Shown here: positions 37,616 to 41,697 of the stretch, in pieces
Numbering within the stretch: the first letter of the stretch is position 1
How the letters are laid out: each line of letters begins with the position of its first letter
Assembly (NCBI RefSeq): GCF_001317345.1
Contig: NZ_JXCG01000004.1
Coordinates: 124,001-188,000 of the forward strand
Length of the DNA: 64,000 nucleotides
Source of the DNA: Thermococcus sp. EP1
GTDB taxonomy: Archaea > Methanobacteriota_B > Thermococci > Thermococcales > Thermococcaceae
Direction of reading: 5' to 3'
The notes under the pieces: generated by a model
Database searches by the model: none
What the model saw: the letters and a program-made list of their open reading frames with translations, nothing else
What the model was told of the DNA's origin: nothing
Made by a program: the position numbers and the translations under genes

Positions 37616-37703
37616 TGGTGCGGGGGCGGGGATTTGAACCCCGGAACCCCTACGGGACGGGACCCTAAATCCCGCGCCTTTGGCCAGGCTCGGCAACCCC
37701 CGC
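37616..37703 (-). tRNA. tRNA-Leu (anticodon TAG)
   Basis: Minus-strand class II tRNA with acceptor GCGGGGG/CCCCCGC, anticodon loop TTTAGGG between GCGGGA and TCCCGT, a long variable arm (CGTAGGGGTTC region), T arm GGTTCAAATCC and encoded CCA. Its 5' end is one base after the rpoD stop codon, and rpl18e follows. Confidence 0.96.
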
Positions 37704-37704
37704 G

Positions 37705-38481
37705 CTATTCGGCTAATTTATGAAGCTCGTTTATAAATTTATCGCTCTTTCTCATTAGAATTTTAAGTGCTAAGCTTACAATTTCCTCAACAGGGAGTTC
37801 TCCGTTACTTTCCACTGTAAAGACAAATGTATTGGGGATTACCTCTTCTTTTATTTTGTTCCCAATGTACTGCTCAAATTCCCTTGGAATGTAAAAGCTT
37901 GTTATTGTAGTTAGTATCAATTCATCCTCAGTCTCTTCAATGGGGAGCTTTTTCCTTTTTGCAATTTCCTTAATCTTTTCCCAATTTGGGATTTCTTTAC
38001 TTACATGAACTTTTGTTAAGTATTTGTAGTAAGCAAATCCCGGTTGCCATTTGACATGATCCTTTCCTTTTCCTAATTTTGCATATGCATTAAAAACTAA
38101 GCGTTGTCCCTCTGCGAGTTTTACTATAGGGATATTTGGAGTCACTGGCCTTACATCAGGATCATCACTCTTCAAATCACCTGAGTACACTATAGCCGGA
38201 CCCTCAGCTTCTAAACTTAGAGTAACAGTGTAATCCTCTAACTCCATGCTATCTAGTTCAAATCTATCAAAGGGGGTTGTTAGAGGGATCAATGCTAGTC
38301 TATGAGCTATTATCTCATCAAAAAGGGCTGAATCATTTTCATAGAACTCCACTTCATCGATCGCAAAAGTTGGGACTTCTCCCAAGATAGTTCTCCTAAG
38401 TGCATTTGCAAACGCAACATCTACTCCTTCCAAAATAAAACGGATTGCATCATCTCTTTTTTCAAGAATCTTTATTTGCAT
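37705..38481 (-). CDS. rpoD: DNA-directed RNA polymerase subunit D (Rpb3/alpha-like)
   Basis: 258-residue assembly-platform subunit. Features are [20 protein letters not shown], the alpha-motif [20 protein letters not shown] and a long insertion leading to [20 protein letters not shown]. It lacks the four-cysteine FeS motif found in some archaeal RpoD. The ATG at 38481 follows GGTGAG; the longer reading would overlap rps11. It ends next to tRNA-Leu. Confidence 0.97.
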
Positions 38482-38515: not shown

Positions 38516-38935
38516 TCAAACTCTTCTTCCCCTTCTACCGCCTTTTGGCCTTGTGCCATCGTGCGGTATAGGTGTAGCATCCTCTACTCTCCCTATTCTA
38601 AGACCTGCTCTTGCAAGTGCTCTAATTGCTGCTTGAGCACCGGGGCCTGGGTTTTTGCTTCTGCTTCCTCCAGGAGCTCTAACTTTTATATGAACTCCAG
38701 TGATGCCCTTTTCAATGGCCTCTTCTGCTGCCCTCCTAGCAGCAATCATTGCTGCATAGGGTGATGATTCATCTCTGTCTGCCTTAACTACCATCCCACC
38801 GCTCCATTTTGAAATAGTCTCAGCTCCAGTTAGATCTGTTATATGAATAATCGTGTTATTGTAAGAGGCATAGATGTGGGCCACGCCCCATTTTTCTTTT
38901 TTCTTTATATTAACAACTTGTTGTTCCTCACTCAT
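38516..38935 (-). CDS. rps11: Ribosomal protein S11
   Basis: 139-residue S11 with [40 protein letters not shown] and the C-terminal [19 protein letters not shown]. It overlaps the rps4 end by four bases. Confidence 0.97.
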
Positions 38936-39474
38936 TGTGCCTCACCCTTCTGAGCCTCTTCAATCATCATTCTTTCAGGATGTTGAGAATTCGCAAATGG
39001 TGATGCTCTTGAATATGTTATCCCGCTTTCTTCCTCTTTGAGTACTAGGTAACTTGGTGATCTGACTACTTGGCCATTTACCTCAATATGTCCGTGAACA
39101 ATTAGCTGTCTTGCTTGTTTGATTGTCCTTGCTAGACCTTTTTTGAATACCAATGTTTGAAGCCTCCTCTCAAGAATATCATCTATTGTAAGTGAAAGAA
39201 CATCATCAAGGTGTGCCCCTTCTGGGAGCATACCAAGTCTCACAAGTCTTTGAAGAAGCTGAGCCCTCTCAATCTCTGCCTGTTTTCCTCTCGCAGCTAG
39301 TAAACGCCTGGCTCTTCTTCTAAAGTTCTTGAGTTGAGTTTCGTGCTTCCATAGCTCCTTTTTATTTTTAAGAGCGTATTTTTGAACCAATACCCTCTCT
39401 CTATCAAGTCTTTCTTTAATCCATGGATGAGAGGGAGTTTCATACCTTTTCCTTTGTCTTTTTGGATCTCCCAT
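38932..39474 (-). CDS. rps4: Ribosomal protein S4
   Basis: 180-residue archaeal S4, an early rRNA-binding assembly protein. It has [20 protein letters not shown] and the S4 RNA-binding motif [20 protein letters not shown]. It lacks the zinc site of some bacterial homologues. In the order S13-S4-S11-RpoD. Confidence 0.97.
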
Positions 39475-39484
39475 TTATACCACC

Positions 39485-39931
39485 TCACTTCTTCCTTCTG
39501 CTAACACCAAGTGTAGAACCTCTTCTAAAGTTCGACTTAGTCCTTTGTCCTCTTAGTGGCAGACCAAGCTCATGCCTGATACCCCTGTAAGCCCTGATTC
39601 TCCTGAGCCTATTAACATCTTCACGCCATGCCATGACGAGTTTTGCCCCAGTAAGATGTAGGTCTCTTCCACTTTCATAATCTTTAGGTCTGTTAAGTAT
39701 CCATCCAGGAATACCATACTTTCCAGGATCTTCAAGAACTGCTTCAATAGCCTTTACTTGCTCTTCTGTAAGATAACCCGCTTTCATCTTTGGATCTAAA
39801 CCTGCAACCTTGCATATTATTGTTGCAAAGTTTACACCTATTCCTTTGATCCCAGTAAGGGCCAATCTAAGTTGTTTGTGGCCATCTATATCAACATTTG
39901 CTACACGCACGATATGTCTAAAGTCAGCCAT
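39485..39931 (-). CDS. rps13: Ribosomal protein S13
   Basis: 148-residue S13: [40 protein letters not shown] and the C-terminal [20 protein letters not shown] are typical. The ATG at 39931 follows GAGGTGTGAT. tRNA-Ser(TGA) is 41 bases upstream on the same strand. Confidence 0.97.
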
Positions 39932-39972: not shown

Positions 39973-40059
39973 TGGCGCCGGGACGGGGATTTGAACCCCG
40001 GCGGGCAAACGCCCACGGGCTCTCAAGGCCCGCGCCATCCCAGGCTAGGCTATCCCGGC
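39973..40059 (-). tRNA. tRNA-Ser (anticodon TGA)
   Basis: Minus-strand class II tRNA with acceptor GCCGGGA/TCCCGGC, anticodon stem CGGGC/GCCCG with loop CTTGAGA, long variable arm GGGCGTTTGCCC, T arm GGTTCAAATCC and encoded CCA. Its first 15 bases are the last codons of the upstream methyltransferase gene on the same strand. Confidence 0.96.
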
Positions 40060-40632
40060 ATACACTCTAAAGCCCGAGCCCTTCGCAAGTTCAACCACTT
40101 CTTTAAAGCTCTCCTCCATTAAAGTCTTAATATATTTTGCGCCTTGATTAGTGCGAATTACAATTTGAAGTAATCCTCCATCGTAGAGATGAAGGGGTGC
40201 ATTTATAACTATTTCCCTCAACACATCCTTACCCGCATGTACTGGAGGGTTTGTAATTATGCTATGAAACTTTTCACCTGTGACGGGTTCATAAAGATAA
40301 CCCCATCTTACCTCGGCATTCTTAATGTTATTGATTTTTAAGTTTTTCTTCGCTATGTTCACAGCCCTCCTATTAACATCCGTCATTACAACCCGCTTCA
40401 CAAATTTAGAGGCAACTATACCAATAACACCATATCCGCAACCAAGATCAAGCACTTCCCAGTCTTTATCTAACACTGCACTCTCTATTAGGAGTTGGGT
40501 CCCTCTATCAAGCTTTCCAAAGGAAAAAACACCGCTAGCAGTGATGAATTTAAAATACTCCCCTCTAATAAATACTTCAATCATTTTAGTTTTCAGTGGT
40601 ACTTGTGGTTCTTTAGAGTAATAATGGCTCAT
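40045..40632 (-). CDS. Class I SAM-dependent methyltransferase (RsmC/MTS-like)
   Basis: 195-residue cytosolic methyltransferase with motif [17 protein letters not shown] (about 60-75), motif [11 protein letters not shown] and the catalytic motif [14 protein letters not shown] (about 125-138). NPP-type motifs occur in enzymes that methylate nitrogen on RNA or protein, such as RsmC. The target is unknown, though the neighbours are translation genes. The last four codons and TAG stop are the first 15 bases of tRNA-Ser (GCC GGG ATA GCC TAG), so tRNA 5' processing removes the stop codon from the mRNA. Confidence 0.85.
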
Positions 40633-40650: not shown

Positions 40651-40664
40651 GAGTTTATAAATCT
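40651..40664 (-). promoter_or_regulatory. TATA promoter of the methyltransferase/tRNA-Ser unit
   Basis: The minus strand reads TTAGATTTATAAACTC, a TATA box about 25 bases upstream of the methyltransferase ATG. It lies in the gap after the cbf5 end and gives a very short leader. Confidence 0.55.
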
Positions 40665-40686: not shown

Positions 40687-41697
40687 CTACCACATTTTCG
40701 GATACCAATCTCGTGGCATAAATACCTTTTCAACATCTACTGCAATCCCTTTTGCCTTCGTTAACATCTCTTGAGTGCTCATTTTTGCTTTACCTAATGC
40801 CACAAGCTCGTCTTTGAGAGTCATTATTGCAATTAAATCACCCGGCTTAATACCTTTATGAAGCCTCACTATGCCTGGAACCGCTAAATCAGCACCATGG
40901 GTAACCGCTGCCACTGCTGAATCCCTAATCCAAACTTTAGGTAAATGTTCTACTGCCTTTTCCATTGGCTGAATTGAATTTCTAAAGTAACTCTCAATCC
41001 CATCATCTTTCCAGAAATGATAAGCATCTATTAAATCATGAAGGCTTACAAGTGTCTCATCTTCTCGGAAAGGTCCACTTCTGCTTCTTCTAAGTTCAGC
41101 CATATGTGCCCCAACACCCAAAGCAAGGCCCATGTGATGAATGAGAGAACGTATGTAAGTACCTGCTTCAACACCGACCCTAAAAAGAACGTCTTTACCA
41201 TCAATTTCTAAAACTTCAATATAGTAAACTTTTCTAGTCCTTAATCTCCTTTTAACAGCACTCCTCAATGGCGGTCTTTGAATGATCTCTCCTTCAAATT
41301 CCCTCATGACAGCTCTTATCTTATCCTCTGAAACACTTCCATGAAGATGCATTAAAGCAATATACTCTTTTCCGGCAGGCAAAAGAGCCTGCACAACTCT
41401 AGTAGCCCTCTCAAGAGCTACTGGTAAAACTCCCGTAACCTTCGGGTCGAGAGTCCCCCCATGACCAGCTTTTTGAAGATTAAGCAGCTTCTTAATCCAT
41501 GCCACAACCTCGTGGCTAGTTGGACCAGGAGGCTTGTCAAGATTTATCACACCAAACTGGAGATGAAGTTCAATAGGCCTCCTCTCTGGAGGATATCCCC
41601 ATTTTGGATTGGTCTCAGCATTCTCATCCTTTATAACAACCTCTCTCTTGAGATCAGCAGGAAGTACGAGCTCTCGCTTTTTCCTTTTCTTAGCCAT
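40687..41697 (-). CDS. cbf5: tRNA/rRNA pseudouridine synthase Cbf5 (TruB family, H/ACA RNP)
   Basis: 336-residue catalytic subunit of archaeal H/ACA ribonucleoproteins. It has an N-terminal extension, INLDKPPGPTSHEVVAWIKK, the catalytic loop GHGGTLDPKVTGVLPVALER with the conserved Asp, YIRSLIHHMGLALGVGAHMA, and a C-terminal PUA domain (about 255-330, WIRDSAVAAVTHGADLAVPG). The ATG at 41697 follows AGGTGAGGAG. Own promoter upstream. Confidence 0.96.
   Translation of the reverse strand: MAKKRKKRELVLPADLKREVVIKDENAETNPKWGYPPERRPIELHLQFGVINLDKPPGPTSHEVVAWIKKLLNLQKAGHGGTLDPKVTGVLPVALERATRVVQALLPAGKEYIALMHLHGSVSEDKIRAVMREFEGEIIQRPPLRSAVKRRLRTRKVYYIEVLEIDGKDVLFRVGVEAGTYIRSLIHHMGLALGVGAHMAELRRSRSGPFREDETLVSLHDLIDAYHFWKDDGIESYFRNSIQPMEKAVEHLPKVWIRDSAVAAVTHGADLAVPGIVRLHKGIKPGDLIAIMTLKDELVALGKAKMSTQEMLTKAKGIAVDVEKVFMPRDWYPKMW

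Follow-up and report, generated by a model that had tools for sequence, protein, structure and literature searches.

We analyzed a 64,000-nucleotide stretch of DNA from Thermococcus sp. EP1 (referred to here as the window), in which a protein-coding gene ends inside a tRNA gene. The tRNA, identified with ARAGORN, is tRNA-Ser(UGA) (anticodon TGA, positions 39973-40059, minus strand). No other of the 43 tRNA genes detected in the window's genome (assembly 95.88% complete) has this anticodon. The protein-coding gene, found in the ORF list and by profile searches, is a 588-nt ORF (40045-40632, minus strand) that encodes a 195-residue MJ0882/RsmC-like SAM methyltransferase. The two genes have 15 nt in common (40045-40059, minus strand), with the codons GCC GGG ATA GCC TAG of the ORF forming positions 1-15 of the tRNA. 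The original prediction placed the methyltransferase stop within a same-strand tRNA-Ser(TGA) and read these codons as the first 15 tRNA bases (40059-40045), and both statements were confirmed by ARAGORN and the ORF coordinates. The methyltransferase uses T13-A14-G15 of tRNA-Ser(UGA) (TAG, 40045-40047, minus strand) as its stop codon. Within the list of 43 tRNAs, tRNA-Ser(AGA) was called with introns allowed (L124) and tRNA-Trp was absent; this call may represent a misread intron-containing tRNA.

All neighboring genes considered here are on the minus strand. The first protein gene 3' of the tRNA is rps13 (uS13, 39485-39931), identified by a profile search. It is followed by rps4 (38932-39474) and rps11 (38516-38935), both assigned by visual inspection of their sequence and place in the cluster, and by rpoD, which encodes RNA polymerase subunit D (37705-38481, start codon inferred). 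The upstream neighbor of the methyltransferase is cbf5 (40687-41697, start codon uncertain).

The ORF is a real methyltransferase. It matched the MTS domain (PF05175) over residues 28-191 (E-value 9.8e-43) and its closest PDB match was MJ0882 (1dus, E-value 1.8e-50, residues 5-191). With the MTS domain covering most of the protein, it belongs to the MJ0882/RsmC-like methyltransferases. Assignment as an RsmC equivalog (16S rRNA m2G1207) was not supported, as the NF007023 score was 84.7 bits against an NCBIfam cut-off of 295.

Occurrence of the overlap in Thermococcaceae and related families

We searched 94 Thermococcaceae genomes with the methyltransferase protein. Some match was found in 93 and an orthologous locus in 89, all of which were read; the five genomes lacking an orthologous locus (G036, G062, G067, G081 and G085) are represented by assemblies that are 61-88% complete. 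The exact 15-nt overlap was called by ARAGORN in 83 of the 89 loci. In one more (L011), the overlap letters are identical and the contig ends inside the tRNA, giving 84 of 89 in all. Overlapping loci were present in each of the six Thermococcaceae genera, and chance is no explanation for an arrangement kept over this range. An ORF, or ORF end, that arose by chance or as an annotation artefact was also rejected, the frame being open into the tRNA in the 84 overlapping loci. In the remaining five loci (hereafter detached), the methyltransferase gene and the tRNA are separated by a gap of 81 nt (four loci) or 158 nt (one locus). All five lie within one genus of nine genomes (g3), which we take to be Pyrococcus-like. 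The original prediction held that relatives whose gene ends before the tRNA would speak against it. Such relatives do occur (5/89), but they keep a remnant of the overlapping arrangement in the gap, and the detached state therefore looks derived. A separate contig scan yielded 24 loci (five from Thermococci and 19 from other organisms), none of which entered these counts.

We further checked how easily a tRNA gene can offer a stop codon. Among the 43 tRNA genes of the window's genome, the first stop in frame with base 1 falls at positions 13-15 in 28, and the first stop in the next frame falls at positions 8-10 in 21. A stop at 13-15 is thus common in tRNAs and needs no special cause. The idea that T13 was created to supply the stop was not supported: tRNA-Ser genes with anticodons CGA, GCT and GGA have GCCTAG at this place without an overlap. 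Among same-strand ORFs of at least 60 aa, the methyltransferase was the only one found to end inside any of the 43 tRNAs, apart from a doubtful 62-aa ORF over tRNA-Val. ORFs of this kind are rare (1 of 43 tRNAs, or 2 with the doubtful ORF).

Outside Thermococcaceae, 19 loci from four other families were read among the 21 genomes of the phylum search; the two remaining genomes (G106 and G111) gave weak matches only. In one of these, a sister family (f3, L133-L141), the methyltransferase TAG shares its G with base 1 of a different tRNA, tRNA-Ser(GGA), a 1-nt overlap present in all nine loci read. Five of the nine were inspected further: an upstream stop (of cbf5, judged by eye) overlaps the methyltransferase start, and an rps13-like ORF (also by eye) begins ~15-20 nt past the tRNA. 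In the other three families (f2, f4 and f5; 10 loci), no tRNA was present in the stretch fetched. Several outgroup proteins have a C-terminal tail whose length is close to that of the Thermococcaceae methyltransferase.

No report of the methyltransferase/tRNA-Ser overlap was found in the literature searched, supplements aside, and no paper was found under the putative locus tags TK1507/TK1508. The portion of the T. onnurineus start-site paper considered here (PMC5316973) does not mention the overlap.

Conserved promoter-like boxes within the methyltransferase ORF

A BRE/TATA-like 14-mer, GAAATAGTTATAAA, occupies codons 140-144 of the methyltransferase (40202-40215, minus strand) and is a candidate promoter of a tRNA-Ser/rps13 transcript. 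It was identical in all 82 full-length overlapping genes and in two truncated ones (L087 and L089). Located at nt 417, it is the longest invariant DNA run of the ORF in the 82 genes, in which the runs shared with the tRNA are 8 and 6 nt. Neighboring genes served as controls: in cbf5 (27 loci found, five dropped for low coverage) the longest invariant run was 5 nt in 22 loci, compared with 14 nt for the methyltransferase in the same 22, and in rps13 it was 4 nt in 80 of 81 loci. Codons 140-143 were the same in 82/82 genes and codon 139 in 81/82, despite a GC3 range of 0.31-0.76. Among columns with a residue at least 85% conserved, an excess codon identity of at least 0.97 was reached only at nine (98, 139-143, 192, 193 and 195). 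Thus, an A-rich BRE and a TATA-like box within the ORF are conserved beyond the protein code. The 14-mer occurred once per genome in seven of eight genomes searched and was absent from the eighth (G009), and its backward control was found in none of the eight. In G024, it lies at C1:1329181-1329194 (minus strand), which would place a start near 1329155-1329166; a second start would fall near 1329080-1329092 from the box 82 nt before the tRNA. With one mismatch allowed, three extra sites were detected in G024 and four in G018, against three and one for the backward controls.

In the portion of a T. kodakarensis transcription start study considered here (PMC4247193), the median distance from TATA box to start is 23 bp, and for 90 internal starts a downstream gene is given as the most likely target. 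With this spacing, the start predicted from the 14-mer would fall at ~40178-40186, close to an invariant ACGA (40181-40184, minus strand). A second TATA-like box, CGCAAAATATATTAAG (40126-40141, minus strand), is located 82 nt before the tRNA. A third TATA-like stretch, AGAAAAACTTAAAAAT (40334-40349, minus strand), lies 290 nt before the tRNA at codons 96-101, where synonymous conservation is unusual, though not universal. It scored 13-17 in most genomes, higher than the 14-mer, and was weak or outside the top four in L072, L083, L084 and L086. These codons (AAA AAC TTA AAA ATC AAC) may belong to a third promoter or to some other element. Before the start of the methyltransferase gene, TTTATAAAC (40653-40661, minus strand) is probably the promoter of the gene itself, and its spacing suggests a leaderless mRNA. 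This outer box varies between loci whose 14-mer is fixed.

Box scores were obtained with a matrix built from 35 of the 43 tRNA upstream regions of the window's genome. One of two tRNA-Met genes (merged by name), tRNA-Asp (short upstream region) and six tRNAs set aside were left out. The six, comprising the test case and five others, were chosen before the matrix was made and after their upstream DNA had been viewed. A box scoring at least 13 was present within 75 nt upstream in 30 of the 35 other tRNA genes, compared with a best score of only 2.9 for tRNA-Ser(UGA). Also among the 35, tRNA-Ser(CGA), tRNA-Ser(GGA) and tRNA-Pro(GGG) (L121, L128 and L123) had upstream scores of 0.5 or less. The five other set-aside tRNAs scored -2.6 or less, and most of them lie behind another tRNA or in an rRNA operon. 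No box was detected between the tRNA and rps13 either (best score 1.3, median -4.2, 88 loci). Accordingly, box scores revealed no promoter directly before the tRNA or directly before rps13. The 14-mer scored 10.4 in nearly all loci, which is below the 30 strong tRNA boxes, on which the matrix was itself trained.

Two further observations on promoters and gene ends were made in the same genome. tRNA-Ser(GGA) and tRNA-Pro(GGG), which have no strong near box, are each close behind an ORF. In addition, the rpoD stop and tRNA-Leu(UAG) are 1 base apart (window positions 37616-37745), and the final rpoD codons contain a strong box, CGATAAATTTATAAAC (score 17.4). This tRNA may be a second one in the cluster with its promoter in the gene before it.

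The detached loci act as a natural experiment on the overlap and the 14-mer. Their gaps aligned to methyltransferase nt 482-550 with scores of 42-73 in 30 comparisons with six hand-picked reference loci, whereas gaps shuffled to preserve base composition only reached a maximum of 34; each gap carries a degraded second copy of the 3' end of the methyltransferase gene. None of the five detached ORF bodies contains the 14-mer. In four, it instead straddles the new stop codon, with its TAG being the stop, and is embedded in an 18-nt exact match to L073, a length never reached by gaps shuffled in the same composition-preserving way. Matches to the other three references spanned 14 nt; shuffled gaps gave matches of up to 10-14 nt, in one case as long as the real one. 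In the fifth locus (L085), the 14-mer was found in neither the ORF nor the gap. The second box is changed in all five detached ORFs, and a copy of it, GGTAAAGTTTATTAAA, is present in all five gaps. The protein changed as well: LREIVINAP of overlapping genes is LERIIREAP or LERIIRGAP in detached ones, which by eye is nearer to MJ0882 and families f2 and f3 than to families f4 and f5. In the tRNA, C13-G22 was observed in all five detached loci and T13 in all 83 overlapping ones, where it is accompanied by T22 (67), A22 (12) or G22 (4). This difference is weak evidence, because T13 is common in other tRNAs too.

We also built a quick tree of 90 rows, excluding the box and C-terminal columns, for which the careful search was incomplete. 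The four full-length detached rows fell among overlapping members of their own genus, which argues against an outside origin of the detached gene. The detached loci did not form one clade in this tree (two changes, with 49 of 85 forks open). A single event probably underlies all five, so that the comparison amounts to one replicate. The proposed duplication junction is not clean and contains extra letters.

Proposed explanation, alternatives and known systems

We consider it quite likely that three elements together account for the locus: the methyltransferase ends with a stop codon provided by the tRNA, a promoter embedded in its ORF drives tRNA-Ser-rps13-rps4-rps11-rpoD, and the overlap was undone once by duplication. 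Based on sequence conservation and the fate of the boxes in the lineage that escaped the overlap, we infer that tRNA-Ser and rps13-rps4-rps11-rpoD are transcribed from this embedded promoter. Transcripts from the outer promoter (near 40655) would be translatable into the enzyme, while those starting ~120 nt (and perhaps others starting ~50 nt) before the tRNA could not encode it. As expected from general tRNA biology, RNase P and RNase Z would cleave the latter to give the tRNA and leave an rps13 mRNA. With a separate tRNA/rps13 transcript that begins within the gene, most of the conflict between mRNA and tRNA would probably be avoided. We propose that the overlap persists because the same letters serve protein, promoter and a tRNA for which one gene was detected. 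In the Pyrococcus-like lineage, it may have been undone by a tandem duplication of part of the locus, with the GGGA at the start of the tRNA and that of the box as its possible end points. Such an event would have provided the enzyme with a new stop (the box TAG in 4/5 loci), and the tRNA would now follow a decaying copy in which the second box is kept (5/5).

Two alternatives dispense with the embedded promoter. In one, the 14-mer would be a regulator site, an RNA element or a set of slow codons needed by the protein. In its favor, 14 letters identical in 82/82 genes are stricter than the varying outer box of the methyltransferase, and the 14-mer has a single occurrence in each genome that has it, of the eight searched. 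However, the 14-mer resembles a BRE followed by TATA, with the invariant ACGA near the expected start distance, and in 4/5 detached loci it has moved to the ORF end, upstream of the tRNA. The moved 14-mer encodes different residues, which argues against a protein or codon role, and we regard a non-promoter function as rather improbable. A simpler view is that of a frozen accident, in which loss of the methyltransferase stop was made good by one that chance provided in the tRNA, with nothing more to explain. The many tRNAs with a stop at 13-15 in frame 0 (28/43) and the nearly unchanged tail length of several outgroup proteins are consistent with it. It accounts for the overlap, but not for the invariant 14-mer or its displacement in the detached lineage, and as a full explanation it appears very unlikely.

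The third alternative concerns RNA processing. The original prediction proposed that a given transcript yields either mRNA or tRNA. This exclusivity holds for any single RNA, because cleavage at the tRNA 5' end takes the stop codon and the four sense codons before it off the mRNA. The prediction presupposes, however, that mRNA and tRNA both derive mainly from the outer-promoter transcript (near 40655), and as the main story it probably fails: the invariant 14-mer, the second box and their fate in the detached lineage suggest a separate transcript with its start within the ORF. In its full form, a processing switch would mean that one outer-promoter transcript is either translated or cut by RNase P into tRNA-Ser and rps13 mRNA, and the enzyme level would follow the balance between translation and tRNA processing. 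Stop-less mRNAs left by the cut would be cleared by the archaeal Pelota/ABCE1 system. A switch is compatible with an embedded promoter, and the overlap, which has persisted in six genera, does mean that one molecule can yield only one of the two products; the tighter, end-to-end packing in family f3 suggests one transcript there. On the other hand, the promoter-like boxes kept at the DNA level offer the tRNA its own transcript, and in one lineage both genes have been retained after loss of the overlap, which leaves the switch fairly unlikely for the present locus. No sign of control of the enzyme by tRNA processing was seen in the sequences. A regulatory switch is possible, more so in family f3, with its genes packed end to end and cleavage predicted to leave a terminal UA. 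An extended version, an archaeal tRNA punctuation, is one we consider quite unlikely: only transcripts spared by RNase P for long enough to be translated would yield the enzyme, the UA of family f3 might be completed by exosome A-tailing, and the 14-mer would set tRNA-Ser and ribosomal-protein mRNA levels independently of the enzyme.

If the embedded promoter is as we suggest, an enzyme and the promoter of a ribosomal-protein/RNA-polymerase operon appear to share one 588-nt gene, which ends inside the tRNA served by this promoter, with two genes and a promoter on the same letters constraining one another. The detached lineage provides a natural before/after comparison, in which duplication would have freed the enzyme from the box and its residues changed, by eye towards some outgroups. 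The family would then be a case of a promoter dictating protein sequence throughout, and a well-defined setting in which to study translation of an mRNA whose stop codon lies in a tRNA.

Several known systems are related to this arrangement. In mitochondria, stop codons can be completed by polyadenylation. The layout resembles the tRNA punctuation of animal mitochondria (cf. PMC5474008 and PMC8437803) in that a tRNA lies directly 3' of an mRNA, 5' cleavage would cut or remove the stop and, in family f3, a terminal UA would be left. In contrast to mitochondrial punctuation, the complete stop codon is set 12 nt into the tRNA, which seems to be supplied by an internal promoter. A second parallel comes from T. 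kodakarensis, where the sections of PMC4247193 considered describe internal starts for the next gene, including rpoL and rpoN, and a tRNA-Lys within the 5'-UTR of an mRNA. As in those cases, a BRE/TATA within an ORF would drive a downstream gene; here, in contrast, the box is frozen at the DNA level across the family and the ORF also overlaps the tRNA, a case that these sections do not mention. Finally, a predicted tRNA-Sec is nested in selB in Alphaproteobacteria, according to the part of PMC8124441 considered. As in our locus, a tRNA gene has letters in common with a gene for a protein of the translation machinery; unlike the nested tRNA-Sec, tRNA-Ser(UGA) shares only 15 nt at the 3' end of the protein gene, and the stop codon is among them.
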